64,000 bases of DNA from Prevotella sp. oral taxon 475. GTDB taxonomy: Bacteria; Bacteroidota; Bacteroidia; Bacteroidales; Bacteroidaceae. How positions within the stretch are numbered: position 1 is the stretch's first letter; each line of letters starts with the position of its first letter. Of the stretch, positions 22,831 through 60,045 are shown one piece after another. The translations under genes and the position numbers were made by a program. The stretch is from assembly GCF_018127805.1 (NCBI RefSeq), contig NZ_CP072334.1, positions 846,001 to 910,000 on the forward strand. The letters are read 5' to 3'. The notes under the pieces were generated by a model. The model had not been told where the DNA came from. It saw only the letters and a list, made by a program, of their open reading frames with translations, and ran no database searches.

Positions 22831-22930
22831 TGACCTCCCGATGTGCGGGAGATGACCTCCTGATGTGCAGGAGATGATCTCCCGATACGCAAGAGGTGAC
22901 TTCCCGCACATCGGGAAGTCACCTCCTGTA
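22831..22930 (-). repeat. Array G: 22-bp-period array, 3' flank of cassette 1
   Basis: Units of the TGACCTCC type start at 22831, 22853, 22875, 22897 and 22919 (period 22). A 29-bp palindrome occupies 22895-22923 (GGTGACTTCCCG, 5-base loop, complement). Read on the minus strand, 52 consecutive bases are identical to array H at 59953-60004. Both lie 3' of a cassette of short-peptide genes, in the same orientation relative to transcription. Confidence 0.92.
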
Positions 22931-23009
22931 AATTTCTAACGGGTTATAAATTTTCTTGCAACGGGTTGGATATTTCAATGTCTCTCACCCTCCTTTCTCC
23001 AGTTAGGCT

Positions 23010-23057
23010 CCCTCCCCTTTACTTCCCTTCGGTCAGTGACCGTTGGTTCGGGGAGGG
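23010..23057 (-). terminator. Hairpin downstream of the fimbrillin-like lipoprotein
   Basis: An 8-bp outer stem CCCTCCCC/GGGGAGGG (23010-23017, 23050-23057) encloses a perfect GGTCAGTGACC hairpin (23031-23041). It begins about 20 bases past the lipoprotein stop. No T-run is obvious, so a pure terminator role is uncertain. Confidence 0.5.
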
Positions 23058-23077
23058 TCGGGGTGGGGCTTTTAGGA

Positions 23078-24664
23078 CTACTCGAACCCGTCGACCCTGT
23101 ACCCGCTGCTGCGGGTGTCGCTGCCCACGCCGACGTAGGCACTGCCGAAGGTCAGGCCGTACGCTTTGTCGCCGCTCCATGGGAGAGCACTTGACGACCA
23201 ATAGTTGCCAATGCCGCCAACGTCGTGCAGCTGACCAGAGATGTATCCACCCAGGGCGGGCAGGTAGAAGTAATTACCTGCATCGGCGGCGGAAGGGAGG
23301 CCTGAGTTGTTGATACTACTGCTGAAGTTGACGTAGTCCTTCCATGTTGTACGCATGTCGGTTGTACCGTCGGCAGATTTCTCGGTGTCGTAATTACCCT
23401 CTGCCTTTAACACAGACTTCTTCTTAAACCACATACCACCTTTATATAAATGACCCATAGTTGTCCATAATTCATCTGCATCCCAACGTGGATCGCCGTG
23501 CATACAATACCAAGACTGCTCGTTAGCGTTTGGAAGGTCTTTGCATGGTGTGTGAGTAGCGTTGAAAGTTGAACCGCTGCCCTCGTGGTACCAACGAGAG
23601 TCGCTGTTGTTCTGGGCGTAGTTGCCTGCTGGCTGACTAACATGTGTTGGCTGACCTACGCCTGCTCCCAAGTTTTTTGTCCATTCGTAACCATACCAAT
23701 ATTGCTGCTGTGCGTCCCACATGTAATAATGGTCGCCATCGTAGTCGCGTATGTTAAGGTTGCCATCTATATCATAATAGTTATTCACGTCATAGTTAAA
23801 AGCTTTAAAAGCCTTTGTAACAGTACCTTCTATTCCTGTTGAGCCATCCTTTAACCAATAACGTACCTTCAAGGTATGAGTGCCTGGTTTAATAACCATA
23901 TAGGCTCCATTAACTGCTACATTATCGGAAGCTGTATTCAAAGGGAAACCGTTAGCATAAACTCCACTGCCTTTGGTACTAAGAATTATCTCCTTGCCAG
24001 TTCCTGTACTAACACTTTGCAACGTGCCTGTAATTGCGTTCAAGGTATAGGTGCTTGCAATGTCATTATCCGAACTTACTTCTATCTTAGTTAAATAGCA
24101 GCTCTGCAACAATGTGTTGCTTACATAAGGGTGAAATACGAGGTAAGCCGCCTGATGCTCTAATTGGAAACTAAAAATTTTTCCTCCTACGCTTCCTGTC
24201 GCAGTTGCAGTACCGTAATCGCCAGATACGCCAAAATGCTCAGTATTATTTGGTGTTGACTGACTTTGAGCAGATGGAATAACAACTTGGTTATTGCTAC
24301 TGTTCTTACCGAAGTAATAAACTTTATAACTTGCACTTGCGCCAAACTTGCCAGGAACTCTATAACGGAAGGAAGCTACCTTCTGAGTTGGAGCGTTGCT
24401 ACTCTTCTGCAATACACCATCATCATCCTTTACGTAGATATAATCGCCTGCTTCCCAAGAGAAGTCGCTACTGTTATAATCCAACGACGTGCGGGTTTTT
24501 GTCTCGTCGCCTGCTACGAAAGTTGTTAGGTTCTTATTCCCCTCCTCGTTTGGCTTTGCTGGGTTCTGAGCCACGTCGTCCTTTGTACATGAGGCCAAGG
24601 CCAAGCCTAAGCTCAGCATGATGCCCAAAGACTTTATCCCAGATAAAAGAGACTGATGTTTCAT
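23078..24664 (-). CDS. fimbrillin-like lipoprotein with C-type-lectin-like C-terminus
   Basis: Predicted surface lipoprotein, 528 residues, lipobox ALASC at about 20-26. The N-terminal region (TFVAGDETKTRTSLDY, then FSWEAGDYIYVKDD) matches the opening of fimbrillin-type shell proteins of Bacteroidales. The last 65 residues (YFYLPALGGYISG, then NYWSSSALPW, AYGLTFGS and SSGYRVDGFE) match the C-type-lectin-like ends seen in many Bacteroidota surface proteins, including targets of diversity-generating retroelements. No reverse transcriptase or template repeat is in the window. The last 200 bp are visibly more GC-rich than the middle, suggesting module exchange. It follows the short-peptide gene by 53 bases. 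Confidence 0.75.
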   Translation of the reverse strand: MKHQSLLSGIKSLGIMLSLGLALASCTKDDVAQNPAKPNEEGNKNLTTFVAGDETKTRTSLDYNSSDFSWEAGDYIYVKDDDGVLQKSSNAPTQKVASFRYRVPGKFGASASYKVYYFGKNSSNNQVVIPSAQSQSTPNNTEHFGVSGDYGTATATGSVGGKIFSFQLEHQAAYLVFHPYVSNTLLQSCYLTKIEVSSDNDIASTYTLNAITGTLQSVSTGTGKEIILSTKGSGVYANGFPLNTASDNVAVNGAYMVIKPGTHTLKVRYWLKDGSTGIEGTVTKAFKAFNYDVNNYYDIDGNLNIRDYDGDHYYMWDAQQQYWYGYEWTKNLGAGVGQPTHVSQPAGNYAQNNSDSRWYHEGSGSTFNATHTPCKDLPNANEQSWYCMHGDPRWDADELWTTMGHLYKGGMWFKKKSVLKAEGNYDTEKSADGTTDMRTTWKDYVNFSSSINNSGLPSAADAGNYFYLPALGGYISGQLHDVGGIGNYWSSSALPWSGDKAYGLTFGSAYVGVGSDTRSSGYRVDGFE

Positions 24665-24717
24665 CTTTCTTTTTTCTTTGTTCGTTTTCTTTTTTTGTTA
24701 ATTAATCGCTTTAGGAA

Positions 24718-24951
24718 TTAGTCGTCCCATGATGAAGAGCTGTCATCGTTAGCTTCTTCGCTACTGTCCTCCTCAAAGTACTCATCACTCCATAAACCGA
24801 AAGACTTGGCTGGAGCCGTTGGACCAGTACCGTGATTTGCCTTCTTGTGCTGGCTCGGGAAGGACGTTTCCATGAGATAAGTCATTTCGCTCACTTGGAT
24901 GATCATGCAACGTGGTGCAGAATAATCCTTCTTTTCTTGTTTCTTTCTCAT
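24718..24951 (-). CDS. short acidic-tailed peptide, cassette 1 (77 aa)
   Basis: I do not recognise a family. The 77-residue product has a basic head with a Tyr-x-x-Pro-like pattern (MRKKQEKKDYSAPR), a central VSEMTYLMETSFPSQ, and a tail very rich in Asp, Glu and Ser that ends in DDSSSSWDD. The cassette 2 peptide at 59681 shares the layout: KKQ, Tyr and Pro, VSE, a Ser-Pro turn, Gly, AK, then an aromatic and acidic DSSEE tail. No classical signal peptide is seen. It lies between the 31-residue ORF and the lipoprotein. A precursor, chaperone-like or secretion-linked role are all open. Confidence 0.6.
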   Translation of the reverse strand: MRKKQEKKDYSAPRCMIIQVSEMTYLMETSFPSQHKKANHGTGPTAPAKSFGLWSDEYFEEDSSEEANDDSSSSWDD

Positions 24952-24968
24952 TGCTTTTTTTGATTTGA

Positions 24969-25064
24969 TTAAAAATTATAGCTATATGTACCCACCTGCG
25001 CTGATGCGTTGCCGGGCACGAGCAGTGCTACAAGTAAGAATAAAAATGTGATTGTCTGTTTCAT
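24969..25064 (-). CDS. 31-aa signal-peptide ORF, possibly a remnant gene
   Basis: ATG at 25064 opens a 31-codon frame ending TAA at 24969. The product is MKQTITFLFLLVALLVPGNA followed by SAQVGTYSYNF: a clear signal peptide with an ASAQ cleavage pattern and only about nine mature residues. Its position, first after the shared 5' element, equals that of the full-length secreted protein in cassette 2, whose mature part also starts shortly after an AQ cleavage site. It is therefore either a truncated remnant of such a gene or a small secreted peptide. Confidence 0.5.
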   Translation of the reverse strand: MKQTITFLFLLVALLVPGNASAQVGTYSYNF

Positions 25065-25228
25065 AAATCTCTAATATTTAAAGGGTGAAAAAATGCTGTG
25101 AATTCTCCTTTCGTCACCACGAATAGTGGGCACGAAAAGAGAAGCAAAGGGAACTTCGAAGAGCCCTTTGCCTATAGGGGTTGCGCTCGCTTCGCGCGCG
25201 CGTATGGAAAAAGCTAAAAAGTGTTACA

Positions 25229-25408
<180 letters not shown>

Positions 25409-25451
25409 TATATAATATATATCCTTTGCGATATGACCTAAAACACGGCGG

Positions 25452-25483
25452 CAAAGGTAGCACAATCTTTTGATACGAGCAAA
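25452..25483 (-). promoter_or_regulatory. Promoter of cassette 1 (TTTG-N20-TACCTTTG)
   Basis: Minus strand: TTTG, 20 bases, then TACCTTTG (25459-25452). This is a full Bacteroidota -33/-7 pair, with transcription starting near 25445, about 25 bases before the shared element. Confidence 0.7.
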
Positions 25484-25579
25484 CTTACGCGCTGCAAATT
25501 GCCTGTAACGAGATGGAAAAGAGCTATTCGGCAGACCGTCTGTATGAGAAGAGAGAAGGCTTAGTCGCTGGTACGTGGG

Positions 25580-27388
25580 TTATTCGTTGGAGAAGTCGGC
25601 CACCATCTTGCGATATAGCGCGTAGAGGCGGGTGCGCGAGATGAAGCCGATGAGTTTGCCGTCGATGTCGACGACGGGGAGCGAGCCTGCATCAGTCTTG
25701 TCGAACTTGGCCATGACTTCTTCCATCGGATCGTTGCAACCGAGGGTGGCCGGAGGTGGCGTCATCACCTGCAAGACGTTGAACTTTTGGTAGAGCTCGG
25801 TACGGAACATGATGTGGCGAATCTTCGTGACGTCGACTTCGCCCACGAGAGCACCGGCCTGATCGAGCACAGGGATAAAGCTGGTGTTGCTGCGACTGAT
25901 GGCGTGAACGAGTTGTCCCAGGGGCATATCGGGACGTACGGCGGTGTATTCTTTGTCGACGATGCTTTCCAGGTTCATCAAAGTGAGGATGGAGCGGTCG
26001 GTATGGTGGGTGATGAGCTTGCCTTCGCGTGCCAATCGCATGCCATAGATACTGTGAGGCTCGAAGATATTGATGGTGAGATAGGAACTGATGCAGACGA
26101 TCATCAGAGGTAGGAGAAGCTGATAACCACCGGTGATTTCGGCGATGAGGAAGATGCCTGTCAGGGGTGAATGCATCACGCCAGCCATGACACCGGCCAT
26201 ACCCAAGAGGGTGAAGTTTTTCTCAGGGATATAGACACCCACTTCGTACAGATTCCACAGACGGGCGAAGAAGAAGCCGCCGAAACCACCGATGAAGAGC
26301 GATGGGGCGAACGTTCCGCCGCAGCCGCCGCTGCCGTTGGTGGCCGAGGTGGCGAAGACTTTGGTGAAGAGCACCAAACCGACATAAACCACGAGTAGAT
26401 GGTTGTGCCCGTAGAAGAGAGAATTGTTGAGGATTTCGCTCCATTCGGCTTCCGTGTTGCCATTGAGCAGGGTGTTGATCGAGCCGAAGCCTTCGCCGTA
26501 GAGCGAGGGAAAGAGGAAAATGAGCGAGCTGAGGAGGGTTCCGCCCACGACGAGTCGCAGGTAGGGGTGATGAGCCATCCGGGCGAAGAAATTTTCGCAG
26601 GTGGTCATCATGCGCATGAAGTAGAGGCTGAGCAGACCGCAGAAGATACCGAAGAGGACGCTGGCCGGTACTCGCTCGATGTTCCAGGCTCCGTCAATGT
26701 GGAAGGTAAACATCGAGTCGCTGCCCACGAAGATATAGGTGAAGCAGGTGGCCGTGACGCAAGCGATGAGGATGGGTAGGAGGGAAGCCATGGTGAGATC
26801 GACCATCAGCACCTCGAGGGTGAAGACGAGTCCGGCGATGGGGGCTTTGTAGATGCCGGCGATGGCAGCAGATGCTCCGCAGCCTACGAGGAGCATCATG
26901 GTGCGGTTGTCGAGTTTGAAGAGTTGTCCTAAGTTCGAGCCGATGGCCGAGCCGGTAAGCACGATGGGGGCTTCTGCACCCACCGAACCGCCGAAGCCGA
27001 TGGTGATGGCCGAGGCGATGACGGACGACCAGCAGTTGTGCGCCTTCAGTCGGCTGCGCTTTGAGGAGATGGCGTAGAGTACCCGGGTGATGCCGTGAGA
27101 GATGTTGTCTTTCACGACATGGCGGATGAAGAGCGAGGTGAGATAGATGCCTACCACAGGGAAGACGAGGTAGAGCCAGTTGATAGACGAGATAGAGAAG
27201 CCGGCTGTGAGGAGAAGTTGTATCTGGTGGATGATCCAATGTAGGCAGTAGGCGGCGATGGCGGCAAAGAGGCCTACGAAGAAGGAGAGTATCAGGGTGA
27301 ACTGCCGAGTGGAGAGGTGTTCGGTTCGCCAATGGGCGAAGCGCACGAGCAGGGAGCGGTTGTTGAGTTCTGTTGCAGCGTCTGTCAT
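25580..27388 (-). CDS. ClC-family chloride channel/antiporter with CBS domains
   Basis: Integral membrane chloride transporter, 602 residues. The ClC core is recognised by GFGGSVGAEAPIVLTGSAIG (about 131-150), which keeps the gating glutamate though the usual GREGP reads GAEAP, and by GGTFAPSLFIGGFGGFF (about 352-368). Roughly residues 20-430 are hydrophobic helices. The C-terminal 150 residues hold two CBS motifs (IVDKEYTAVRPDMPLGQL and VMTPPPATLGCNDPMEEV), which in relatives bind adenine nucleotides. It follows the TsaC-type gene by 20 bases, so it is probably co-transcribed. Confidence 0.93.
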   Translation of the reverse strand: MTDAATELNNRSLLVRFAHWRTEHLSTRQFTLILSFFVGLFAAIAAYCLHWIIHQIQLLLTAGFSISSINWLYLVFPVVGIYLTSLFIRHVVKDNISHGITRVLYAISSKRSRLKAHNCWSSVIASAITIGFGGSVGAEAPIVLTGSAIGSNLGQLFKLDNRTMMLLVGCGASAAIAGIYKAPIAGLVFTLEVLMVDLTMASLLPILIACVTATCFTYIFVGSDSMFTFHIDGAWNIERVPASVLFGIFCGLLSLYFMRMMTTCENFFARMAHHPYLRLVVGGTLLSSLIFLFPSLYGEGFGSINTLLNGNTEAEWSEILNNSLFYGHNHLLVVYVGLVLFTKVFATSATNGSGGCGGTFAPSLFIGGFGGFFFARLWNLYEVGVYIPEKNFTLLGMAGVMAGVMHSPLTGIFLIAEITGGYQLLLPLMIVCISSYLTINIFEPHSIYGMRLAREGKLITHHTDRSILTLMNLESIVDKEYTAVRPDMPLGQLVHAISRSNTSFIPVLDQAGALVGEVDVTKIRHIMFRTELYQKFNVLQVMTPPPATLGCNDPMEEVMAKFDKTDAGSLPVVDIDGKLIGFISRTRLYALYRKMVADFSNE

Positions 27389-27408
27389 CTTCTGTTGCGT
27401 GGGGAGGG

Positions 27409-27978
27409 TTATTTTCGGATGACGGTCACTTCGCCGTCGCGGGTGAGTTTGATGATACTACTGGGTGCGTGGGGTTGATGTTCTTGACGGCGCGAGTGGC
27501 AAACATAGTCTACGGCCTGGAGTAGTTCGGCGCTGATGTCGGCATAGTTCTGCGCAGCCGGTTCGCCGCTGATGTTGGCACTGGTGCTCACCAAGGCTTT
27601 TTGAAATCGGTAGCACAGTTCGTGGGAGAAAGGCTCGGCCGTTACGCGCAGGGCGACGGAACCGTCTTCGGCTACGAGATTGGGGGCCAGGTTGACGGCA
27701 TCGTCGAGGATGACGGTAGTGGGTTTTGTGGCCAGTTCTACCAAGTCCCACGCCACGTTGGGCACGTTGCGTACATAGCGTGCCATGCGCGTGGGCGAGT
27801 CGACCAGACAGATGAGAGCCTTCGAGTCGGCGCGTCGTTTGAGGGCGTATACCTTGGCCACGGCCTCGGCGTTGGTGGCATCGCAGCCGATGCCCCAGAT
27901 CGTGTCGGTGGGATAGAGAATCACGCCGCCTTGGCGGAGCACTTCTATTGCGTTTTTGATGTCTTCTGTTTGAGTCAT
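27409..27978 (-). CDS. L-threonylcarbamoyladenylate synthase (TsaC/Sua5/YrdC family)
   Basis: Makes threonylcarbamoyl-AMP from threonine, bicarbonate and ATP for t6A modification of tRNAs. The 189-residue product has the YrdC core: GGVILYPTDTIWGIGCDATN (about 15-34), KRRADSKALICLV, and VSTSANISGEPAA (about 142-154). It is the short TsaC form, with no Sua5 extension. The frame is open to 28023, but the -7 element at 28021-28028 puts transcription start near 28014, so ATG 27978 is chosen. It is the first gene of a pair with the ClC transporter. Confidence 0.92.
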   Translation of the reverse strand: MTQTEDIKNAIEVLRQGGVILYPTDTIWGIGCDATNAEAVAKVYALKRRADSKALICLVDSPTRMARYVRNVPNVAWDLVELATKPTTVILDDAVNLAPNLVAEDGSVALRVTAEPFSHELCYRFQKALVSTSANISGEPAAQNYADISAELLQAVDYVCHSRRQEHQPHAPSSIIKLTRDGEVTVIRK

Positions 27979-28020
27979 AAACGTTTTGTTTTGAAGGGAG
28001 CTTTCCCTTGTTGAGTGATG

Positions 28021-28028
28021 CAAATTTA
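28021..28028 (-). promoter_or_regulatory. -7 promoter element (TAAATTTG) of the tsaC-type gene
   Basis: Minus-strand TAAATTTG lies about 43 bases before ATG 27978. Further downstream of thrC, an 11-bp inverted repeat GTTTCCCTCCG/CGGAGGGAAAC occupies 28120-28130 and 28168-28178 and may help end the threonine operon. Confidence 0.55.
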
Positions 28029-28202
28029 GAACAAATTACTGTAATACGTACCTGCTGGGGTGAACAAACCGCTCTTTGTTTTAGGGAAGGCAAGAGAGTT
28101 GGTCTTGGTCCGGCTCTGCGTTTCCCTCCGGGGGAAGCTCCAAAGATAGCGGATTCTATGTTTTCCTCGGAGGGAAACGAAAAGAGAAAACGTTTTGTCC
28201 TC

Positions 28203-29495
28203 TTACAGTAGGAGAGCTTTGAGCTGGGCGAAATCGTTCTCGATACGCAGCGTTTGTTTCTGCCCTTGCAGGAAACGGGAGAGCCGCTCAGGGATAGGGA
28301 CGGGGGTGGGAAGAAGAGCATCTACCGTTTCTTTGAACTTGGCAGGGTGGGCAGTCTCGCAGAACAGACCGTGCTCGCCGGTCTGAAGCTGTTGGCAGAG
28401 GGCTTGGTAACCACAGGCACCGTGAGGGTCGAGGATGTAGGAAGTGCGCTCATAACAGGTGCGGATGGCGGTGCGGATCTCATCGTCGGTGAATCGACTG
28501 CCGCTGATGAGTGCGTTGATTTTCTCGTAGGATTCGCCGTAGAGGTCGAGGATGCGGGCAAAGTTGCTTGGGTTGCCCACATCCATGGCGTTGGCGATGG
28601 TAGGGATGCTGGGCTTGGGGTGGTAGGTGCCAGTCTGGAGGTATTTGAAGAAAACGTCGTTGGCGTTGTTGGCGGCGATGAAACGTTTGATGGGTAATCC
28701 CATCTCGCGGGCGAAGAGGGCCGCGCAGAGATTGCCGAAGTTGCCGCTGGGCACGCAGACCACCAGTTGGTCTTCCCGTCCCATCAGCTTCATCTGTGCA
28801 TAAGCATAGAAGTAATAGAACGCTTGGGGCAGGAAGCGGGCCACGTTAATGGAATTGGCAGAGGTGAGGTGGAGCCTCTCATTGAGCTCGGCATCGATGA
28901 AGGCTTGTTTGACAAGGGATTGACAGTCGTCGAAAGTGCCGTTTACCTCTATCGCCGTGATATTCCGTCCGAGCGTGGTGAACTGGCTCTCTTGTATCGC
29001 GCTGACCTTACCCCGGGGGTAGAGCACTTTGACCTGCACACCGTCGACGCCTAAGAACCCGTTGGCCACAGCCGAGCCAGTGTCGCCGCTGGTGGCGACG
29101 AGCACTTGGATGGTTTGGCTATCTGTTGTAACGAAGTGGCGGAGCAGGCGGGCCATGAACCGTGCACCCACGTCTTTGAAGGCGAGGGTGGGCCCGTGGA
29201 AGAGTTCAAGAGTGTAGAGGTGGTCGTGAAGGGGGCGCACGGGGCAGTCGAACGTGAGTGTGTCTCGCACGATGGTCTCTAAGGCCTGTGCGTCGACATC
29301 CTCTCCGAAGAAAGCCTGGGCCACGGTTAGGGCAATGTCTTGGAAGGAGAGGCGGTGGATGTGTCGGTAGAATTCGTCGGGCAGCCGGACGATGCACTCG
29401 GGCATGTAGAGTCCGCGGTCGGGGGCCAGTCCCTTGATGACGGCTTCTCTCAAACTAACGGGAGAGGATTTTCGGTTGGTGCTGTAGTATTTCAT
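28203..29495 (-). CDS. thrC: threonine synthase
   Basis: PLP enzyme converting O-phosphohomoserine to threonine. The 430-residue product starts MKYYSTNRKSSPVSLREAVI. It carries the PLP lysine in TLAFKDVGARFMARLL (about 109-124), the SGDTGSAVANGF phosphate-binding loop, and VPSGNFGNLCAALFA. It is the last gene of the operon thrA - mutase-like gene - thrC, 18 bases after the middle gene, completing aspartate-to-threonine synthesis. Confidence 0.97.
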   Translation of the reverse strand: MKYYSTNRKSSPVSLREAVIKGLAPDRGLYMPECIVRLPDEFYRHIHRLSFQDIALTVAQAFFGEDVDAQALETIVRDTLTFDCPVRPLHDHLYTLELFHGPTLAFKDVGARFMARLLRHFVTTDSQTIQVLVATSGDTGSAVANGFLGVDGVQVKVLYPRGKVSAIQESQFTTLGRNITAIEVNGTFDDCQSLVKQAFIDAELNERLHLTSANSINVARFLPQAFYYFYAYAQMKLMGREDQLVVCVPSGNFGNLCAALFAREMGLPIKRFIAANNANDVFFKYLQTGTYHPKPSIPTIANAMDVGNPSNFARILDLYGESYEKINALISGSRFTDDEIRTAIRTCYERTSYILDPHGACGYQALCQQLQTGEHGLFCETAHPAKFKETVDALLPTPVPIPERLSRFLQGQKQTLRIENDFAQLKALLL

Positions 29496-29513
29496 CTGCT
29501 TTCGTTTTTACGG

Positions 29514-30758: not shown

Positions 30759-30769
30759 TTTTCTTTTCT

Positions 30770-33277: not shown

Positions 33278-33321
33278 TGAAGAAAGGCCGATAATGCCAA
33301 CAGATAACGCTGGCAAATGCT

Positions 33322-35005: not shown

Positions 35006-35041
35006 AACGGTGCTACTGAACAGTTCAGTAGCACCGTTTTT
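35006..35041 (+). terminator. Terminator of the FAD oxidoreductase, also first unit of array C
   Basis: A 16-bp inverted repeat AACGGTGCTACTGAAC (35006-35021) with complement 35023-35038 around one central base is followed by TTTTT. Later array units keep its right half. Confidence 0.85.
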
Positions 35042-35440
35042 GTCTCCCTGGCGTTACTGAACAGTTCAGTAGCACCATTTTTGCCTCCCTGGCGGTTTTG
35101 AACAGTTCAGTAGCACCATTTTTGTCTCCCTGATGGTTTTGAACAGTTCAGTAGCACCATTTTGGTCTCCCTGATGGTTTTGAACAGTTCAGTAGCACCA
35201 TTTTTGCCTCCGCGGTGGTTTTGAACAGTTCAGTAACATCATTTTTGTCTCCGCGGCGTTACTGAGCGACTCAATTTCATCATTTTTGTCTCCGCGGCGT
35301 TACTGAGCGACTCAATTTCATCATTTTCGTCTCCGCGGCGTTACTGAGCGGCTCAATTTCATCATTTTTGCCTCCGTGGCGTTACTGAGCGGCTCAATTT
35401 CATCATTTTTGTCTCCGCGGCGTTACTGAGCGACTCAGTA
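35006..35440. repeat. Array C: eleven 41-bp units after the FAD oxidoreductase
   Basis: The GAACAGTTCAGTAGC core starts at 35018, 35059, 35100, 35141, 35182 and 35223. It becomes GAGCGACTCAATTTC-like at 35264, 35305, 35346, 35387 and 35428. All ten spacings are exactly 41. The spacer keeps TTTTTGTCTCC followed by CTGATGG or GCGGCGT. A change in core sequence halfway, without any change of period, is clear. Confidence 0.95.
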
Positions 35441-40191: not shown

Positions 40192-40425
40192 TCATCGACA
40201 ATGATCGGTTCTCTTTCATGGAGTCTCCATTTGCTTCATTGCCAAGGATTAGTTCTCTTTTATTGAGCCATTATGCTCTTTATTGTCAAGGATTAGTTCT
40301 CTTTTATTGAGCCTCTATTCGCTTCCTTGTCAAGGATTAGTTCTCTTTTATTGAACCTCTATTCGCTTCATTGCCAAGGATTAATTCTCTTTCATTGAGT
40401 CTCTATTCGCTTCATTGACAATGAA
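40183..40425. repeat. Terminator of tatD and array F (44-bp units)
   Basis: GAGAACTGATCAT (40183-40195) pairs with 40201-40213 (one U-G pair), followed by TTTCAT. TTCTCTTT then recurs at 40209, 40253, 40297, 40341 and 40385, a period of exactly 44, each unit repeating the terminator's right arm plus a CTATTCGCTTCATTGCCAAG-type spacer. The last unit closes with an arm reading CAATGAACAATTCTCAATGG. Confidence 0.9.
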
Positions 40426-52506: not shown

Positions 52507-55049
52507 CACATTGCTCTCGTTATCTCTCCGCTGACCGTCGAGTTTTTTTGCTCACGGCCCTTTTGCTGTGCTTCGCAATGGCGGCACAGCCTGCATCGTT
52601 GTTCAAACGTAAGAAGAAAACGCCTGCCACCGAGGTGAAGAAAACAGCCTACGAGCGTACCCTTACCGATCATCCCTGCGAGTCGAGCCGCGGAGGTTTC
52701 ATCTCACTGCACAAGACTGATGGCAAGTTGCTGGTCGAACTTCCGCGTACATCGCTGGGTCGCGACATGCTGGTGGGGGCCACCATCTCGTCGGTTTCCA
52801 ATCCCAAGTTGGGTGATCTTGGTTTTAAGAATTCTAATCTGGTGCACGTTCGTTTCGTCGAGAAAGACAGCTCCGTGGTGATGCAGGTGGTGAATACCGA
52901 CCTCTACTTCGACCCCTCGAAGTCCAACGCAGCCTTAGCTGCGCGGCGCAACTACGACCATCTCGACTTCTTCTCCTTCCCCATTAAGGCCCGCAGCGCA
53001 GACAAGGCAGTGCTGTTCGACGCCTCCTCGTTCTTTCTTAAAGAAGACCGTTTCTTCCCCATCATCGCCAAGACGGTGGGCTCCTACAGCGTCAATTCTA
53101 CCTTCAAAGAAGACCTCTCGCGCATCACTGCCCTTAAGACCTTTGAGGAGAATGCCTGCGTGAAGATGGACCGGCACTATCTCATCAGTCTTTCGGGCAA
53201 GAACGGTACGCCGGTGAGCAATTATCCGGTCACCATCGGTGTCAACTTTACCCTCGCTCTTCTGCCCGAACAGCAGATGACGCCCCGACTGAGCGACACG
53301 CGCATCGGCATGTTTCTCATCAACAAAGAGGTGGAGACAGAGGGAGCCATCGAGAAATGCACCTTCGTGAAGCGGTGGCGGATAGAGCCGAAAGACACGG
53401 CCGCCTATTTCGCTGGTCGGCTTTCCGAGCCGGTCAAGCCCATTGTGTATTACGTCGAGAACACCTTTCCCCCATTGTGGAAGCGTGCCATCAAGGCCGG
53501 CATCTTGTGGTGGAACAAGGCTTTTGAGCGGATTGGCTTCAAGAATGTGTTGCAGGCGGTGGACTTTCCCGAGGGCGACCCTAACTTCGACCCCGACAAC
53601 TTCCGTTATTCTTGCATCCGCTATCTTCCCACCGACGTAGAGAATGCCATGGGACCCTCGTGGACCGACCCGCGGACGGGCGAAATCATCAATGCCACGG
53701 TGCTGGTCTACAACGACGTCGTCAACACCATCAACAACTGGCGATTCGTGCAGACGGCGCAGGTAGACCCTACTGCCCGCGCCGCCACTATGCCCGACAG
53801 CATCATCTCCGAAACCCTCGAGTATATCATTGCTCACGAGATCGGTCACACGCTTGGGTTCATGCACAATATGGCCGCCTCGGCTGCTCTGCCGGTAGAC
53901 TCGCTGCGGTCGGCCCGCTTCACTCAGCAATACGGCACGACGGCCTCTATTATGGATTACGCCCGTTTCAACTACGTGGCCCAGCCTACCGACCGCGGTC
54001 TGCGCCTCACTCCTCCGCGTCTGGGCGTATACGATTTCTACGCCGTAGAGTGGGCCTACCGTCTTTTTCCCCATTCAACGGGCTACGAAGACGATGCTCA
54101 GCACCTGCGCCGCCTTGTGGCCCAGCACGAGGGCGACCCTTTCTATCGCTATGGTTTGCAGCAAACGTCTACCCGATACGACCCCTCGGCCATTGAAGAG
54201 GATTTGGGCGACGACCCCGTTCGCGCCTCCGACTACGGGATGGCCAACCTGCGCTACATCCTCTCGCATCTCGACCATTGGATCGCCAACGAAGACGACA
54301 CTCGTCGCAAAGAAGAACTTTATAATGAAATCCTCTCTCAGGCCATCCGCTACGTGCACAATGTCTATGCCAACGTGCCCGGCATCTACCTCCACCCCAC
54401 CAGTGAATCTTCCGGTCTGCCTCGCTACCGGGTGGTACCCAAAGCCCGTCAGCGCGCCTCGGCCCAATGGCTCTTGCGCATGGCCCGCACCTTTGCCACC
54501 CTGGGCAACGACACCATCGAACGCAAACTGCCCTACGGCTCCAACCGGCCTTTCAAAGTGATGGCGCGCGACGTGCAGGCCCTGGCCATGATGGCCGCCT
54601 CGAAGCTCTCGCTCTCGTTCTATCTCGACTCCACTTCCTATTCGCCTTTAGCGTATATGGAGGATGTCTACTGCGATGTTTTTGCCAAGACGCTCTCGGC
54701 CGACGAGCATCTCACTCCCGCCGACCTCTCCTTGCAACGTCTCTACGTCGACTATCTGCAAGGCGGTGTGGCCGACATGAAGCAAGCACCCAATGTTCAT
54801 AATTTGTGTTCTGCCCTCCGGAGCGGATGCCATCACGGCGAGGCCTGCGGCTTTCTGAACTTCGGCAGCGGATATGGCGAACCCGAACCGCTGTGGGGCA
54901 CTACCGTGGGGCGTACCTCCGAGTTTCAGTTTTTCTACGCCCAAAAGTTATCTGCCCTCTTGGCCGAGCGCATTCCGCGCACCATCGATTCCGAGCTCAA
55001 AGCCCATTACCTGTTGCTGGCCAAACGCCTGAAGAGCTACCTCAAATAG
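52503..55049 (+). CDS. zinc-dependent metalloprotease, active-site intact
   Basis: 848-residue exported protease of the same family as the preceding gene. Signal peptide to about residue 30 (FAMAAQPA). The metzincin-like motif HEIGHTLGFMH occupies residues 445-455, with ligands His445, His449 and His455 and catalytic Glu446. A Met-turn lies at Met484 in SIMDYARFNYVAQ. Shared landmarks with the degenerate partner include FISLHKTDGKL, FDPDNFRYSCIRY and FNYVAQPTDRGLRL. ATG 52503 overlaps the upstream stop; the frame is open earlier only inside the neighbour. Last gene of the SusC operon, followed by array D. Confidence 0.92.
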   Translation: MTHCSRYLSADRRVFLLTALLLCFAMAAQPASLFKRKKKTPATEVKKTAYERTLTDHPCESSRGGFISLHKTDGKLLVELPRTSLGRDMLVGATISSVSNPKLGDLGFKNSNLVHVRFVEKDSSVVMQVVNTDLYFDPSKSNAALAARRNYDHLDFFSFPIKARSADKAVLFDASSFFLKEDRFFPIIAKTVGSYSVNSTFKEDLSRITALKTFEENACVKMDRHYLISLSGKNGTPVSNYPVTIGVNFTLALLPEQQMTPRLSDTRIGMFLINKEVETEGAIEKCTFVKRWRIEPKDTAAYFAGRLSEPVKPIVYYVENTFPPLWKRAIKAGILWWNKAFERIGFKNVLQAVDFPEGDPNFDPDNFRYSCIRYLPTDVENAMGPSWTDPRTGEIINATVLVYNDVVNTINNWRFVQTAQVDPTARAATMPDSIISETLEYIIAHEIGHTLGFMHNMAASAALPVDSLRSARFTQQYGTTASIMDYARFNYVAQPTDRGLRLTPPRLGVYDFYAVEWAYRLFPHSTGYEDDAQHLRRLVAQHEGDPFYRYGLQQTSTRYDPSAIEEDLGDDPVRASDYGMANLRYILSHLDHWIANEDDTRRKEELYNEILSQAIRYVHNVYANVPGIYLHPTSESSGLPRYRVVPKARQRASAQWLLRMARTFATLGNDTIERKLPYGSNRPFKVMARDVQALAMMAASKLSLSFYLDSTSYSPLAYMEDVYCDVFAKTLSADEHLTPADLSLQRLYVDYLQGGVADMKQAPNVHNLCSALRSGCHHGEACGFLNFGSGYGEPEPLWGTTVGRTSEFQFFYAQKLSALLAERIPRTIDSELKAHYLLLAKRLKSYLK

Positions 55050-55061
55050 TAGGTCGCAGTG

Positions 55062-55211
55062 AAATCCCGCCGCGGGAAATCTCCACGGAGACTCCCTGAT
55101 GCTTCTGCAGCGTGCAGAACGGCCGCGGAGACTCCCTGATGAATTCTGCAGCGTGCAGAACGACCATAAAGACAAAAACGGCGTCTCTGAACATCTCAGA
55201 GACGCCGTTTT
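55062..55211. repeat. Array D and operon terminator (41-bp units)
   Basis: Palindromes spaced 41: CCCGCCGCGGG in the unit at 55062, TTCTGCAGCGTGCAGAA at 55103 and 55144, then in phase the centre (about 55193) of a 16-bp perfect stem AAAACGGCGTCTCTGA (55175-55190) with complement 55196-55211 ending in TTTT. That last hairpin is an intrinsic terminator for the SusC operon and, by its A-rich left arm, for feoAB too. The spacer CGGCCGCGGAGACTCCCTGA shares parts with arrays B and C. Confidence 0.9.
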
Positions 55212-55225
55212 CGTCGTATTTGATA

Positions 55226-55265
55226 TAGAAGCATTTGTCTTAACTCCCTTTCACTCCTTCACCCC
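55226..55265. repeat. 40-bp dispersed repeat, identical to 13043-13082
   Basis: All 40 bases match the copy beside array B. It starts 14 bases after the terminator and ends 8 bases before the feoAB stop codon, which reads on the other strand. Confidence 0.9.
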
Positions 55266-55273
55266 CTTTCCTC

Positions 55274-57709
55274 CTAAAAAAATATCCTCCCCACCTGATA
55301 AACCCCCGCACTGACCAACCAGGCCAACGCCGTGGTGTAGAAAGCCGCGAAGAGCGCCCAACGCCACGAACCACTCTCGTTGCGGATGGCGGCCACCGTG
55401 GCCACACAGGGGAAATAGAGGAGAACGAAAAGCAGGTAGGCATAGGCCGAGAGAGGCGATACGCCATCGGAGAGCATCTGTCGCCGCAGTCGGGTGTACT
55501 TGGCGTGGTCGGTGCTGAAGTTTGAGTCGTCGGCAAAACTATCGTCGTCGGCATAGAGCACACCCATGGTCGAGGCCACGATCTCCTTGGCACCCACGCC
55601 GGCCAGCAGACTCACGTCGAGCTTCCAGTCGAAACCCTGCGCGCGGAAGAGCGGCTCGATGGTCTTTCCCAGTCGGCCGATGTAACTTTGTTCCTGCTGT
55701 TGCTGCGGCGTGAGATCCTCGCCCTGCGGGAAATAACCCAAAGCCCAGACAATGATACTGGCCACGAGAATGATGCCACCCATCTTTTGGAGATATTGTC
55801 GGCCCTTCTCCCAAGTGTGCCGCAGGATGGCCTTGCGAGTGGGAAAACGATAGGGCGGCAATTCCATGACGAAAGGCACGTCGGCCCCCGTGACGAGAAA
55901 TCTACTGAAAAGCCTGCTCATCACCACCGCCATGAGGATGCCTACCACGTAAAGCGAAATCATGATGGCCGAACGATATTCAAGAGCGAAGAACGTTCCC
56001 GTTATCATGATGTAAATGGGCAGCCGGGCCGAACAGCTCATCATCGGCAGAATGAGCATCGTGACCAGTCGGCTGCGCCTGCTCTCAATCGTTCGCGTGG
56101 CCATGACGGCAGGCACGTTGCAGCCGAATCCCATGATCAATGGGATGAACGACTTGCCGTGCAGACCCATCTTGTGCATCAGTTTATCCATGATGAAAGC
56201 GGCACGAGCCATATAGCCGCTGTCTTCCATGAAAGAGATGAAAAAATAGAGCAACAGAATCTGCGGCAGGAAAACGATGACAGCTCCTACGCCGGCTACG
56301 ACACCATCGATGAGCATCGCCTTGACCGGGCCCGGGGGGAGCGTCTGCCCGAACCAAGAACCGAGCTGGGAAACGCCGGCTTCGATCCAGTCCATCGGAT
56401 ATTGCCCCAAAGTAAAAGTGATTTGGAACATGACGTAGAGCAGGAAGAAGAAGATGGGGAAACCCCAGTAGCGATGGGTGATGATCGCATCGAGGGCGTG
56501 GGTGAGCCGATAGGTATCGCGGGTGGAACCCTCCTCGTAGTCGGCTTCCTGCAGAGCCCCATGAATAAAACCGTATTTGGCATCCATGAGGGCCGTCTCA
56601 CTGTCTACTTTCACGTCGGCCTCGAGCGTGCGGACGGCGGTTGTGCGGGCGGCATCCACCTGCGGGAAGTGGGGCAGCGAGGAGACGTAAGTCAGGGCCT
56701 CGGCATCCCCCTCGAGCAGTTTGATGGCCAGGTAGCGGGTGGAATATTGATGGCACGACTGCGAAACGATTTCCAACTGCGATTTGATGCTCTCGATGGC
56801 CCGTTCGACATACTGTCCATGGTTGATGTGGATGTGGCGTGAAATGCCCTCGGCTCCCTCGTAGAGCTGGATGATGGTATGAAAAAGCAGCTCCACGCCG
56901 CGCCCGGTTTTGAAGACGGTGGGCACCATCGGTACACCCAAGAGACGACTCAGGGTGGGAAGGTTGAGGCGGTCGCCGCGCTCTTCAAATTCGTCGAACA
57001 TGTTCAAGGCACATACCATGGGCAGGTTCATGTCGATGAGTTGGGTAGTGAGGTAGAGATTGCGTTCGAGATTGCTCGCATCGAGCACGTTGACGATGAC
57101 GTCAGGCGTTTTCTCTACGATTTGTCGCCGCACGTAGAGCTCTTCAGGACTGTAGGCCGAGAGCGAGTAGGTGCCGGGCAGGTCTACCAGCCGGAACTCA
57201 TATCCCTCGAACCGTGCCCGCCCTTCCTTAGCGTCTACGGTGACGCCGGAGTAGTTGCCCACCCGTTCGTGCGCCCCCGAGGCGAAGTTGAAGAGCGAGG
57301 TCTTGCCGCAGTTGGGATTCCCCACCAAAGCCACGTTGATGGTTCGGCTGCGTTGCATCGCCACTTCGCGCAGACGACGGTCTGTGGAAGGCTCCTTTTC
57401 CGTTTCCTTTCCGGTCGCACCTTCGACAGCTTTCTCTGTCACTTTCTCTGTCGCGATAGATGACATGTCGATAGCTTCGGCCTCCTCTCTTGATACCACT
57501 TCAATCATTCGGGCCTCGTCGTGACGCAGCGAAATCTCGTAGCCCAGGATGCGGTATTTCACCGGGTCGTGTAACGGAGCGTTGAGCATCACCTCTACCG
57601 TCTTGCCCTTGATAAAGCCCATTTCCACGATGCGCTTTCTAAATCCGCCGTGCCCCAGCACCTTTACCACTACGGCGCGTTCTCCTGTTTTGAGTTCCGA
57701 TAATCTCAT
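55274..57709 (-). CDS. feoB: ferrous iron transporter, FeoA-FeoB fusion
   Basis: Inner-membrane Fe(II) importer with GTPase domain, 811 residues. Residues 1-72 are a FeoA domain (MRLSELKTGERAVVVKVLGH and the SLRHDEARMIEV end). A Glu/Thr/Lys-rich linker (about 80-110) leads to the G domain: G1 ALVGNPNCGKTSLFN (about 127), G3 DLPGTYSLSAYSPEE, G4 LNMFDE. The membrane part contains FIPLIMGFGCNVPAVMATR and VSLLAGVGAKEIVASTMGVL, the two Gate motifs, with cysteines in GFGCNVP. A TATCTTTG element lies at 57734-57741. Confidence 0.97.
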   Translation of the reverse strand: MRLSELKTGERAVVVKVLGHGGFRKRIVEMGFIKGKTVEVMLNAPLHDPVKYRILGYEISLRHDEARMIEVVSREEAEAIDMSSIATEKVTEKAVEGATGKETEKEPSTDRRLREVAMQRSRTINVALVGNPNCGKTSLFNFASGAHERVGNYSGVTVDAKEGRARFEGYEFRLVDLPGTYSLSAYSPEELYVRRQIVEKTPDVIVNVLDASNLERNLYLTTQLIDMNLPMVCALNMFDEFEERGDRLNLPTLSRLLGVPMVPTVFKTGRGVELLFHTIIQLYEGAEGISRHIHINHGQYVERAIESIKSQLEIVSQSCHQYSTRYLAIKLLEGDAEALTYVSSLPHFPQVDAARTTAVRTLEADVKVDSETALMDAKYGFIHGALQEADYEEGSTRDTYRLTHALDAIITHRYWGFPIFFFLLYVMFQITFTLGQYPMDWIEAGVSQLGSWFGQTLPPGPVKAMLIDGVVAGVGAVIVFLPQILLLYFFISFMEDSGYMARAAFIMDKLMHKMGLHGKSFIPLIMGFGCNVPAVMATRTIESRRSRLVTMLILPMMSCSARLPIYIMITGTFFALEYRSAIMISLYVVGILMAVVMSRLFSRFLVTGADVPFVMELPPYRFPTRKAILRHTWEKGRQYLQKMGGIILVASIIVWALGYFPQGEDLTPQQQQEQSYIGRLGKTIEPLFRAQGFDWKLDVSLLAGVGAKEIVASTMGVLYADDDSFADDSNFSTDHAKYTRLRRQMLSDGVSPLSAYAYLLFVLLYFPCVATVAAIRNESGSWRWALFAAFYTTALAWLVSAGVYQVGRIFF

Positions 57710-57733
57710 GTCTTCGTCTATTTAACTTGGGAA

Positions 57734-57741
57734 CAAAGATA
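57734..57741 (-). promoter_or_regulatory. -7 promoter element (TATCTTTG) of feoAB
   Basis: Minus-strand TATCTTTG is 25 bases before feoAB ATG 57709. No Fur-box-like palindrome was recognised with confidence. Confidence 0.5.
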
Positions 57742-57781
57742 TTATATTTTCCTCGTTCGCCGAATATTCACCTTTGCTTTC

Positions 57782-57812
57782 TTGCGTATTTCGGCCCGTT
57801 TGCCTACCTTTG
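57782..57812 (+). promoter_or_regulatory. Promoter of cassette 2 (TTG-N20-TACCTTTG)
   Basis: TTG at 57782-57784, 20 bases, then TACCTTTG at 57805-57812; same spacing and same -7 as cassette 1. Transcription would start near 57819, leaving a leader of about 450 nt. Confidence 0.65.
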
Positions 57813-57856
57813 CACACATCTTTCAGGTAACAGAACTGGAGGGTATATATTATATA

Positions 57857-58024
<168 letters not shown>

Positions 58025-58269
58025 TGTAACACTTTTTAGCTTTCTCTTACGCGCGCGCGAAGCGAGCGCAACCCCTATTAGCAAAGGGCTCTTCGGAGTT
58101 CCCTTTGCTTCTCTTTTCGTGCACATTTGGAAAATTGTTGAATAAAATCATGTAGCAAATAGAATCAAAGGAAGGTTTTTCCCGGTTAACCTTCTGCTTA
58201 TATATAATCGATCAGAATAACAAGGATGTCTGCCGGGGATGTCCGACAAACCCAATTAAACCTAAAAGA

Positions 58270-59661
58270 ATGATGAAAAAGAGAGCTTTTACTTTTATCT
58301 TGTTGTGTTTGGCCATTGGATTGTCTACCACAACATTGGCGCAAACCCAATATCATACAGCCACTGTTAATGGAATCACCTGGACCTATAAGTTAACCGG
58401 CAATAACGCTGCCATTGTTAATCCCCGTGCCTTTACTGGCGGCATCGGTCCGTCAGAATATAGCAGTTGGTCTGATGCAACATGGACAGACCATTTAGGC
58501 ACTTATACCGGTGTGATCAAAATTCCCGCAGAGCTGGACGGGCATCCCGTAACAACTATTTCTGGCGGAACTTTTGATGGAAGCGGTGCAAAAGGATATA
58601 TCTTCGAAGAGACTACACAAACTTTGGATCTACAAGGACGCATTTGGAAGACAGACTATACTATGGGAAGTCCGCTTCAATACATCGATATGACGAATAT
58701 CAAAACGCCTCCTACCTGGGTATTGGATAATGGTAAAATAAGCCGAGACTATCATGCCGGAACTTTCTACCGCATCAATCCCGGCGTTTTGATCTATCTA
58801 CCCAACGGAACGAGTAAGAACTACGGACCAACAACCGGTTGGCTTTCGAATGAACCCGCGTGTACCAATTTCATCATCGATGGTGAGTGTGAGATCTTTA
58901 AAGTATTCGATCAGAATTTCGATATAGGGGGTAACATGAAGAGTCTCACCCATAACGTGTATGTTCCTCACGCCTTTACAGCCAAGAAGGCAACGTATGA
59001 CCGCACCTTCAGCAATGTGGCCGGCAAAGCGGTGAGCACACTCTACCTGCCTTATCCTACCGACCTGCCCACAGGTATGCAGGCCTATGAGTTCCAATTC
59101 AAGGGAATAGACGCAAGTGGCGACAAGGCTTTCTGCTTTGTCGCCGTACCCCTCGGTACCCGACTCGCAGCCAATAAACCTTATCTTGTACGCATCACCG
59201 ACGGACAGAATCACACCCTGCCTGTGATGCAGAACGTACAAGTGCCTGTAACACCCGACATCCTCACCACGGCTCAAACCTCTGCCGACGGCCATTGGGC
59301 CTTTTACGGCACCACCGAGCAACTCGACAACGCCGACGCTTATGCCAAGAAGGCCTACTATCTCAATGGCAACAAGTGGTGGGCGGTGCAGAGCGGTGTG
59401 ACCAACGACTATATCGCGCCCTTCCGCTGTTTTATCTCCAGTCCCACCAACGCCACGCCGGCCAAGAGTTTCCTCATGGTATTAGACGATGACCATACCA
59501 CCACCGACATCCACCAGCTTGAGAACGAGACGGAGCAAGATGTAAAAAGCGGCCGTCACACGTTCTATTCTATCGACGGTAAGCGCATGGGCACCAACTA
59601 TGATGCCCTCGAGCGCGGCCAGATGTACGTCGTGAACGGCAAGAAATTCTATAAATTTTAA
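58270..59661 (+). CDS. secreted BspA/LRR5-like protein, payload of cassette 2
   Basis: 463-residue exported protein. Signal peptide to about residue 25 (TTTLAQ). Residues 81-102 (IKIPAELDGHPVTTISGGTF) match the first turn of BspA-type leucine-rich repeats, but no long repeat array follows. Residues about 240-400 form a beta-rich domain (STLYLPYPTDLPTGMQAYEF). The end (HTFYSIDGKRMGTNYDALER, then VVNGKKFYKF) resembles C-terminal sorting-like tails of Prevotella surface proteins and may be a type IX secretion signal; porQ in the window makes that possible. MM start: 58270 or 58273. It begins about 148 bases after the shared element, and the peptide gene follows by 19. Confidence 0.75.
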   Translation: MMKKRAFTFILLCLAIGLSTTTLAQTQYHTATVNGITWTYKLTGNNAAIVNPRAFTGGIGPSEYSSWSDATWTDHLGTYTGVIKIPAELDGHPVTTISGGTFDGSGAKGYIFEETTQTLDLQGRIWKTDYTMGSPLQYIDMTNIKTPPTWVLDNGKISRDYHAGTFYRINPGVLIYLPNGTSKNYGPTTGWLSNEPACTNFIIDGECEIFKVFDQNFDIGGNMKSLTHNVYVPHAFTAKKATYDRTFSNVAGKAVSTLYLPYPTDLPTGMQAYEFQFKGIDASGDKAFCFVAVPLGTRLAANKPYLVRITDGQNHTLPVMQNVQVPVTPDILTTAQTSADGHWAFYGTTEQLDNADAYAKKAYYLNGNKWWAVQSGVTNDYIAPFRCFISSPTNATPAKSFLMVLDDDHTTTDIHQLENETEQDVKSGRHTFYSIDGKRMGTNYDALERGQMYVVNGKKFYKF

Positions 59662-59680
59662 TCTTTAGGAGGAACCAACA

Positions 59681-59881
59681 ATGAAAAAACAAACATACAT
59701 CCGCCCCACCACAAGCGTACTGAACACCGTCTCCGAAGGCTTCATCTGCCTATCCATTCCCATTGGTCAGGGTGGTGGCCCTGGTGGTGGTGGACAAGCC
59801 AAGGATGGATTCTTTGAAGAGGAAGATGAAGAAACATTCGACTCCTCGGAAGAAAAGCCCTGGGGAGAGGTGAGCTATTAG
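59681..59881 (+). CDS. short acidic-tailed peptide, cassette 2 (66 aa)
   Basis: Unknown family. MKKQTYIRPTTSVLNTVSEG opens a 66-residue product. The middle has SIPIGQGGGPGGGGQAKDGF, and the tail FEEEDEETFDSSEEKPWGE is strongly acidic. A strong AGGAGG site lies 9 bases before the ATG. The layout matches the cassette 1 peptide (basic head with Tyr-Pro, VSE, a Ser/Pro turn, Gly, AK, acidic DSSEE tail, Trp near the end) though overall identity is low. Its immediate downstream position after the secreted protein suggests the two work together. Confidence 0.65.
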   Translation: MKKQTYIRPTTSVLNTVSEGFICLSIPIGQGGGPGGGGQAKDGFFEEEDEETFDSSEEKPWGEVSY

Positions 59882-59952
59882 GTTCTGACGGAATGTTCTT
59901 CTGCCGGAATCATCTGCAGAATCGCTGCGTGCCATCACCATTAAAAATAGCG

Positions 59953-60045
59953 GAGGTGACTTCCCGATGTGCGGGAAGTCACCTCTTGCGTATCGGGAGA
60001 TCACCTCCCGTGCATCAGGAGGTCACCTCCCGCGCATTGAAATCC
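59953..60045 (+). repeat. Array H: 22-bp-period array, 3' flank of cassette 2
   Basis: Units at 59957, 59979, 60001 and 60023 (period 22), with the 29-bp palindrome GGTGACTTCCCG-ATGTG-complement at 59955-59983. Bases 59953-60004 equal the minus strand of array G. A stray unit (GCATCAGGAGGTCAT) appears at about 60384-60398. The array starts 72 bases after the peptide stop and may end the transcript. Confidence 0.9.

Follow-up and report, generated by a model that had tools for sequence, protein, structure and literature searches.

Two gene cassettes in a 64,000-nucleotide stretch of the Prevotella sp. oral taxon 475 genome (contig NZ_CP072334.1, positions 846,001 to 910,000; hereafter the window) belong to a family of about 40 surface-protein operons dispersed over the genome. 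Cassette 1, on the minus strand, and cassette 2, on the plus strand, each carry a promoter, a structured leader interrupted by a dinucleotide tract, and a gene pair encoding a short acidic peptide with a YxxP motif and an exported protein (the payload). It is reasonably probable that these operons encode adhesins, that the hypermutable tract in their leader tunes or switches expression, and that payloads are exchanged between the shared flanks. The arrangement looks like an undescribed way of varying cell-surface display.

The leader is a dispersed family tied to one operon type

To survey the family, the cassette 2 leader (e01; 57842-58125, plus strand) was searched by BLAST against the whole genome (2,560,308 bp, one contig). 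The search returned 42 pieces, which resolve into 38 distinct places after split pieces at four of them are merged. The cassette 1 leader (e08; 25128-25421, minus strand) is among these, with 92% BLAST identity over ∼280-290 bp. This agrees with an earlier reading of the window from its letters and open reading frames (the sequence-only reading), which had marked near-identical elements of 280-290 bp at 25130-25421 (minus) and 57844-58122 (plus). A covariance model of the leader 3′ half, R1 (matching cassette 1 at 25128-25250), recovers all 38 BLAST leaders and two weaker places, and the genome holds 42 leaders when diverged copies are counted.

A YxxP peptide gene lies behind 40 of the 42 leaders, and the placement of the leader is tied to one operon type and one orientation. 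Conversely, of the 43 loci that a peptide profile detects genome-wide (E ≤ 0.1), 40 lie behind a leader, a near one-to-one association. Three weak profile matches stand away from leaders, at contig positions 530401 (plus), 1198672 (minus) and 2198334 (plus). Two leaders have no YxxP peptide. One belongs to a decayed cassette (position 1007315, minus), in which the tract is down to a few bases and the promoter is degraded. The other (2089322, plus) has a 786-aa protein behind it with carboxypeptidase-regulatory-like (CarboxypepD_reg) domains, TonB-receptor-like by eye.

Some 40 dispersed copies would also suit a miniature inverted-repeat transposable element (MITE) inserting before genes, as BrickBuilt does in Porphyromonas gingivalis, and the 22-bp arrays at the 3′ end of some cassettes resemble species-specific minisatellites. 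However, the copies are confined to one operon type in one orientation, and leader and genes co-occur across genomes. Moreover, neither window copy has terminal inverted repeats of at least 9 nt, only two hairpins (H1 and H3, below) and an AT palindrome. This lack ruled out a mobile element as a candidate for the two window copies, and a MITE-like origin of the family is extremely improbable. Rfam gave no match at gathering level for the window leaders or 12 leader loci; the single sub-threshold match, an animal small Cajal body RNA on the opposite strand over the repeat, was rejected.

Leader anatomy and covariation

In transcript order, the leader consists of a promoter (P1), an AT-rich stretch in many copies, hairpin H1, a promoter-like box (P2), the dinucleotide tract, a conserved block and hairpin H3. 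The sequence-only reading had recognized P1; the microsatellite, (AC)25 in cassette 1 and (AC)19 in cassette 2, the two strong hairpins and the second promoter-like box were not singled out there. P1 has the canonical Bacteroidota form (T/C)TTG-N20-TANNTTTG, stands ahead of all 38 BLAST leaders and faces its own operon in each. In the window it takes the form (T/C)TTG-N20-TACCTTTG, with TTTG at 25452-25483 (minus) in cassette 1 and CTTG at 57781-57812 (plus) in cassette 2. The distance from P1 to the first start codon is 303-668 nt (median 386), and 300-500 nt in 35/38 leaders.

H1 (GCAGAAAAG..CTTTTCTGC) is a 9-bp stem of -13.6 kcal/mol followed by ATCTTTT, located at 25347-25370 (minus) in cassette 1 and 57895-57918 (plus) in cassette 2. 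P2, of the form TTTG-N19/20-TA and alternatively foldable as a hairpin (H2), reads TTTG-N20-TACCTTAC at 25297-25328 (minus) and 57937-57968 (plus). Its spacing of 19-20 is kept in 36 of the 37 own leaders whose tract has three or more units. Directly behind P2 comes the tract, at 25248-25298 (minus; TG on the plus strand) and 57967-58005 (plus), and past it a conserved block (CGCACC in most leaders), a pyrimidine-rich stretch and TACGCGCGCG. H3, terminator-like with a T-rich tail, stands between tract and genes (25144-25171, minus; 58080-58109, plus). It occurs in two main sequence versions (29/38 and 8/38 leaders; -16.1 and -27.3 kcal/mol) and one other.

Both hairpins covary in sequences from the own and related genomes. 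For H1 (73 distinct sequences), 95.4% of cells are paired, with 90 double changes against 27.8 when shuffled; for the 3′-half model containing H3 (76 distinct sequences), the values are 95.9% and 62 against 19.7, the alignments having been fitted to the models, which favours the structure. Slid controls reached at most 71.7% (H1) and 62.5% (3′ half) pairing.

Two promoter-like boxes, each with a terminator-like hairpin behind it, could also be an independent pair of small-RNA genes (P1-H1 and P2-H3) standing before operons with unseen promoters of their own. Yet all 38 BLAST leaders precede a peptide operon, the first start codon lying 61-180 nt past the BLAST match in 35/38, and such a gene pair is very unlikely.

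The dinucleotide tract

Tract lengths in the own leaders run from 2 to 36 units, with a median of 22. Genome-wide counts of (AC)10, overlapping places included, are 262 + 214 for the two strands, and by their tract lengths the 38 BLAST leaders supply 244 + 214 of these. The remaining 18 places are runs at 92687 and 666976, both diverged leaders of the same operon type. Because the 38 leaders and these two diverged ones cover every (AC)10 place, all 36 (AC)n tracts with n ≥ 10 of the 2.56-Mb genome lie inside leaders.

In related genomes the position of the tract is kept and its unit differs. Among the 80 named loci listed, of 115 stretches found with a pattern allowing only AC- or CT-like starts, 64 carry (AC)n and 16 carry (CT)n. 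Both units can be present in one genome, as in Hallella seregens (nine CT, one AC) and the metagenome-assembled genome SUG325 (one of each). In leaders collected independently of that pattern, the 57 tracts that could be read (37 in this genome, 20 in relatives) all have AC or CT, never GT or AG, on the sense strand, these being related sequences rather than independent draws and R1 itself starting with the last two tract bases.

Leaders matched between distinct genomes differ in tract length in seven of eight pairs. The clearest cases are 24 versus 4 units at 98.4% flank identity, 17 versus 7 at 97.4%, and 22 versus 10 at 94.5% between the own leader e34 and one of Hoylesella marshii. The others are, in order, 18 versus 25 (90.9%), 7 versus 4, 7 versus 13, 13 versus 4, and an eighth pair with 4 and 4, the last two pairs of the list matching over 473 nt only. 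A tract of (CT)263 is found in P. koreensis. In two relatives' loci (L305 and L316) runs of N extend to the tract, and draft assemblies may therefore undercount such leaders.

Being G-free, the tract should be structureless as RNA. That it is G-free, keeps one strand and can be made of either AC or CT speaks more for a length effect at transcript level than for a sequence-specific DNA-binding site. The termination factor Rho prefers YC steps, which (AC)n does not have, and a reading of the tract as a Rho utilization (rut) site is kept as an idea only.

An ordinary structured leader would explain part of this evidence. Here, protein- or ligand-responsive attenuation or antitermination would govern one regulon, and the tract would be an unstructured spacer of neutral length. 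The conserved and covarying hairpins that flank the tract, G-free AC or CT sequence expected to form structureless RNA, and the presence of one conserved leader on ∼40 operons, which resembles a regulon, are all consistent with it. However, nothing obliges a neutral spacer to consist of a pure repeat, all 36 long (AC)n tracts of the genome are found in leaders, and lengths vary from 2 to 36 units here and up to 263 in P. koreensis. This explanation is therefore considered unlikely.

Peptides and payloads

An exported-protein gene, an acidic-tailed peptide gene and an array of 22-bp period do lie behind both window elements, as the sequence-only reading had described. The common gene order that it assigned to them does not hold. 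In cassette 1 the gene for the 77-aa acidic YxxP peptide (24718-24951, minus) comes first and that for a 528-aa lipoprotein (lipobox LASC-TKDD; 23078-24664, minus) second, whereas in cassette 2 a 463-aa secreted protein (58270-59661, plus), many relatives of which carry BspA-type LRR_5 (PF13306), precedes a 66-aa acidic YxxP peptide (59681-59881, plus). Similarly, the signal-peptide reading frame said to head both cassettes is present in cassette 2 but reduced in cassette 1 to a 31-codon stub (MKQTITFLFL...; 24969-25064, minus), which appears to be a remnant of the type seen in cassettes e02 and e06.

A long exported-protein frame follows 37 of the 38 leaders, e17 being without one. The 37 payloads comprise 24 classed as lipoproteins, some of whose listed frames start upstream of the likely start codon, and 13 with a Sec-type signal, which end in sequences such as GIYIVNGKKVV or MYVVNGKKFYKF. 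The peptide precedes the 24 lipoproteins and follows the 13 Sec-type proteins. Pfam identified BspA-type LRR_5 in ten payloads, fimbrillin-like Mfa_like_1 in five and Mfa_like_2 in one.

The acidic peptides are 60-79 aa long (34 read), and in an alignment of 28 of the 40 the sole invariant residues are the Y and P of YxxP. The same 28 peptides matched no NCBIfam family and no Pfam family above its cut-off (two families had one member each at E 0.026 and 0.15). The peptide has 641 relatives among public proteins; among the best 120 of the 641, a few are named Hoylesella or Prevotella. No solved structure related by sequence was found for payload 1, the peptide or payload 2, and the AlphaFold model of payload 1 (mean predicted local distance difference test score 48.8) was not used. 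The fixed pairing of the peptide with an exported protein suggests that it may act as a partner in export or in control.

The C-terminus of payload 1 (window 23078-23350) is hypervariable. In an alignment of 38 sequences, the relatives being 69-86% identical, 34 of the 37 columns with at least eight residue types fall in residues 441-522. Variable codons end in C at 25/34 positions in e08 and 26/34 in the paralogue e24 (L076:4890-6458), versus 27% and 31% elsewhere. Paralogues of 940 aa (e03, e04, e05 and e07) have no such bias (12-16 of 30, versus 44-48%). By this codon pattern the end of payload 1 is a putative variable region resembling those of diversity-generating retroelements (DGRs). 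An active DGR in this genome was ruled out, no RVT_1 gene and no template repeat for the e24 end having been found.

Additional genes stand behind some cassettes. An HU-like gene was detected by a motif filter behind 8/38 (PF18291, HU-HIG, in one tested; e.g. L065:4586-5005), and a DUF6261-like gene behind 5/38 (PF19775 in one tested; e.g. L061:3815-4936).

Mosaic cassettes

Comparison of whole cassettes indicates exchange between them. In cassette 1, positions -62 to 425 (leader and signal-peptide stub) match e06 at 93% and e02 at 90%, the match stopping inside the truncated signal-peptide frame. Positions 445-1394 and 1509-2480, which hold the peptide and lipoprotein genes, match e24 at 89% and 81%, and positions 2495-2594 (the array) match e02 and e06 again (96% and 94%). 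Judged by these matches, cassette 1 is a chimera, its payload belonging to one cassette type and the leader and array that enclose it to another. The e29 leader is just 85-92% like that of cassette 2, and the 3′ part of its peptide gene and its array are 94.8% like those of cassette 2. Cassette 2 and e02 are alike in the leader (96%) and the rear part (88%) and do not share the payload front. Within the leader itself, the nearest relative of the 5′ half is clearly not that of the 3′ half in 20/38 copies; e31 and e34, for instance, are separated by a distance of 0.01 in the 5′ half and 0.28 in the 3′ half.

The chromosomal surroundings of the cassettes were compared as well, in search of an empty site by synteny. 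One relative (G003) has a cassette with an e08-type payload beside ClcA, and ClcA has leader marks within 1.5 kb only there and in the own genome. Cassette 1 could therefore equally be an old payload with a converted leader and array. FeoB lies within 1.5 kb of rpsO in 0/30 genomes, own included (the two are 3 kb apart in the window). The payload swap between flanks that the sequence-only reading had raised is supported as a past event by the homologies, cassette 1 being apparently a mosaic of the e06/e02 and e24 types.

The near-identity of the leaders, and here of some 3′ arrays, would let homologous recombination swap payloads and leader halves from one cassette to another. Taken further, leader and array might serve mainly as DNA-level homology, possibly as non-B DNA, for payload-exchanging recombination, regulation being secondary. 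The breakpoints of the chimeric cassette 1 at both flanks, the joining of a different leader to a cassette 2-like peptide 3′ end and array in e29, and the discordant halves of 20 leaders would fit this. Nevertheless, an overall correlation between the two leader halves persists (Mantel r 0.45; 0/2000 permutations as high), and the strand asymmetry of the tract (57/57), together with covariation, points to a function in the transcript. The array is absent from every leader-keeping relative searched, and with a promoter of its own each cassette needs no swap for expression. A primarily recombinational role is accordingly judged quite improbable.

The 3′ array

The 3′ arrays of 22-bp units lie at 22828-22913 (minus) in cassette 1 and 59965-60045 (plus) in cassette 2, where the array is foldable as one long hairpin. 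The sequence-only reading took leader and array together as shared flanks and suggested a genome search with both as a check. With the array as query, 22 pieces merge into 18 places. Twelve of these are at most 5.2 kb behind a same-strand leader, versus ∼4% expected, but six lie away from leaders. Conversely, an array accompanies 12 of the 38 BLAST leaders, and at E ≤ 0.001 it is absent from 22/22 leader-bearing relatives, the own genome being the only positive among 23 searched. It stands behind all eight leaders of the cassette 2 group (cassette 2 and its seven most similar leaders) and behind 4/34 others (Fisher 4e-6), and this group spans three payload families and both gene orders. The shared flanks are thus real in the two window cassettes, but the array was ruled out as part of a conserved frame by its absence from most leaders, its sites elsewhere and its absence from relatives. 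Independent scatter of leader and array across the genome, with no tie to secreted-protein and peptide pairs, which would have spoken against the idea of flanks, is not seen for the leader and is seen in part for the array.

The 3′ array is one of several window repeats of similar size class, the others being minisatellites of 41-bp and 44-bp units at 3538-3725, 12772-13000, 35014-35429, 55086-55162 and 40208-40421. The window also contains a bacterial class A RNase P RNA (6850-7231, minus).

Distribution in relatives

With the own genome counted, R1 matches were obtained in 11/100 same-genus and 31/298 family genomes; the two sets overlap, and the stricter Infernal filters used for larger sets lose weak matches. 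Most genomes searched are without the leader. Named genomes showing the leader pattern include Segatella maculosa, Hallella seregens, Hoylesella marshii, H. oralis, H. enoeca, H. saccharolytica, Prevotella micans, P. veroralis, P. vespertina, P. bivia, P. falsenii, P. koreensis and Phocaeicola oris. A CG-rich block follows the tract in 65 of the 80 named loci, and the TANNTTTG box is ahead of it in 68 of the 75 with enough upstream sequence; some named loci may therefore be diverged or chance matches. A simple filter detects an acidic YxxP peptide in 34/40 relatives' loci with at least 3 kb downstream (one of the 34, L160, does not look like one by eye), and leader and genes are found together across genomes. 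By RpsO, the closest of the 29 other genomes is G076 (96%).

The alternative that the sequence-only reading had offered to payload swapping, a conserved regulatory frame, is supported for the leader by its 42 copies, its near one-to-one association with the peptide, its covarying hairpins and its presence in 31/298 family genomes. For the array it is not supported.

A model for adhesin display

Each operon has its own P1, a structured 5′ leader and a gene pair. In the pair, the gene for the acidic YxxP peptide either precedes that of a lipoprotein, which in some cases is fimbrillin-like, or follows that of a Sec-type secreted protein, which is often BspA-like. In the proposed mechanism, the leader would be transcribed as an attenuator-like control region, with H1 and H3 between promoter and genes and H3 acting as a terminator. 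The hypermutable (AC)n or (CT)n tract, between H1 and H3 and directly behind P2, would change in length by strand slippage. Its length could set the amount of transcription or translation getting to the genes, and each adhesin would then be tuned or switched independently. Length might act through how far apart the hairpins stand or how quickly one follows the other, through a single-strand landing site, or through the initial transcription from P2.

A more specific version is conceivable but tentative. The leaders may constitute a new phase-variable RNA leader class, in which a transcribed G-free tract, its length set by slippage, serves as a rheostat flanked by two terminator-like hairpins, independently in ∼40 adhesin operons. 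The YxxP peptide would then serve the exported protein or the leader circuit as a dedicated partner, and leader recombination and, in some, a hypervariable C-terminal domain would diversify the payloads further.

Several observations weigh against control by tract length. Four of the 38 leaders have fewer than ten units (8, 4, 3 and 2) and may not vary, and several relatives have 3-6. One of the eight matched pairs is equal, and the length differences separate species or paralogues rather than members of one clone. A frameshift switch is not open to a tract outside coding sequence, and an effect on expression needs some length-sensitive step. Long tracts could be neutral once a tract exists; the second unit at the same place argues against neutrality. 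The T-tract of H1 is short, the scan tool called a terminator at H1 and only a partial stem at H3, and no antiterminator partner for H3 was found, none having been systematically sought. Finally, the P2 box is present in 36/36 readable relatives, in 18 of which the search pattern demanded it.

If tract length does control expression, a considerable share of the cell surface in a number of oral Prevotellaceae would be under repeat-length control, for which the closest parallel among the systems compared is in mycoplasmas. Long-read assemblies of oral communities could then be read for adhesin states. Some 40 copies in one genome provide a natural series of leader lengths, and the YxxP peptides are a family with no curated model, tied almost one-to-one to surface-protein operons in this genome. 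The mosaic cassettes are a direct example of payloads exchanged among operons that have flanks in common.

Comparison with known systems

None of the open PMC papers listed by the literature searches describes these leaders or peptides, judged by titles and the starts of abstracts. The leader has features of two known classes. A conserved structured RNA between promoter and gene, the mark of an attenuator, is evident from covariation and from the promoter upstream in 38/38. As in contingency loci, a pure repeat occupies a regulatory position at surface genes, and repeat number is polymorphic at matched loci, here of distinct genomes.

Diversity-generating retroelements combine a reverse transcriptase with a template repeat and produce adenine-directed variation. 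The payload 1 C-terminus, which varies at 34 columns with mostly NNC codons, resembles their targets; in contrast to these, no RVT_1 gene or template repeat was found in the genome. In systems of the pilS or vls type, promoterless silent copies supply one expressed copy, whereas here P1 is present on all 38 cassettes, promoterless payload copies not having been searched for.

Among published systems, surface loci of Bacteroides undergo phase variation by DNA inversion of promoters or genes (PMC11868660). This is surface phase variation in the same bacterial order; here, the variable feature is a repeat, and promoters face their operons in 38/38. In the accessible portion of the same 2025 phase-variation review, the terms Prevotella, UTR (untranslated region) and dinucleotide do not occur (PMC11868660). 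BrickBuilt, the MITE/minisatellite of P. gingivalis, is described as an intergenic array of 23-nt units in 19 copies with small inverted-repeat ends (PMC4596501). Its array is comparable with the 22-bp 3′ array, whereas the leader described here has no inverted-repeat ends that were found and is bound to one operon type.

In Neisseria meningitidis nadA, repeat length tunes adhesin expression via spacing rather than frameshift, in a single gene whose repeat lies among repressor operators and distal promoter elements (PMC2791445). By contrast, ∼40 operons share a common structured leader here, with no repressor known. In Mycoplasma gallisepticum, many variable surface lipoprotein genes (vlhA) are each preceded by a conserved context with a (GAA)n repeat, which lies ∼40 nt ahead of the transcription start and varies in number between strains (PMC6258824). 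The present repeat differs in being a dinucleotide, AC or CT, behind the promoter and inside a covarying leader, with a YxxP peptide co-encoded and Bacteroidota as hosts. With many surface-protein genes, each with a simple-sequence repeat upstream, vlhA is the nearest working parallel among the systems compared.

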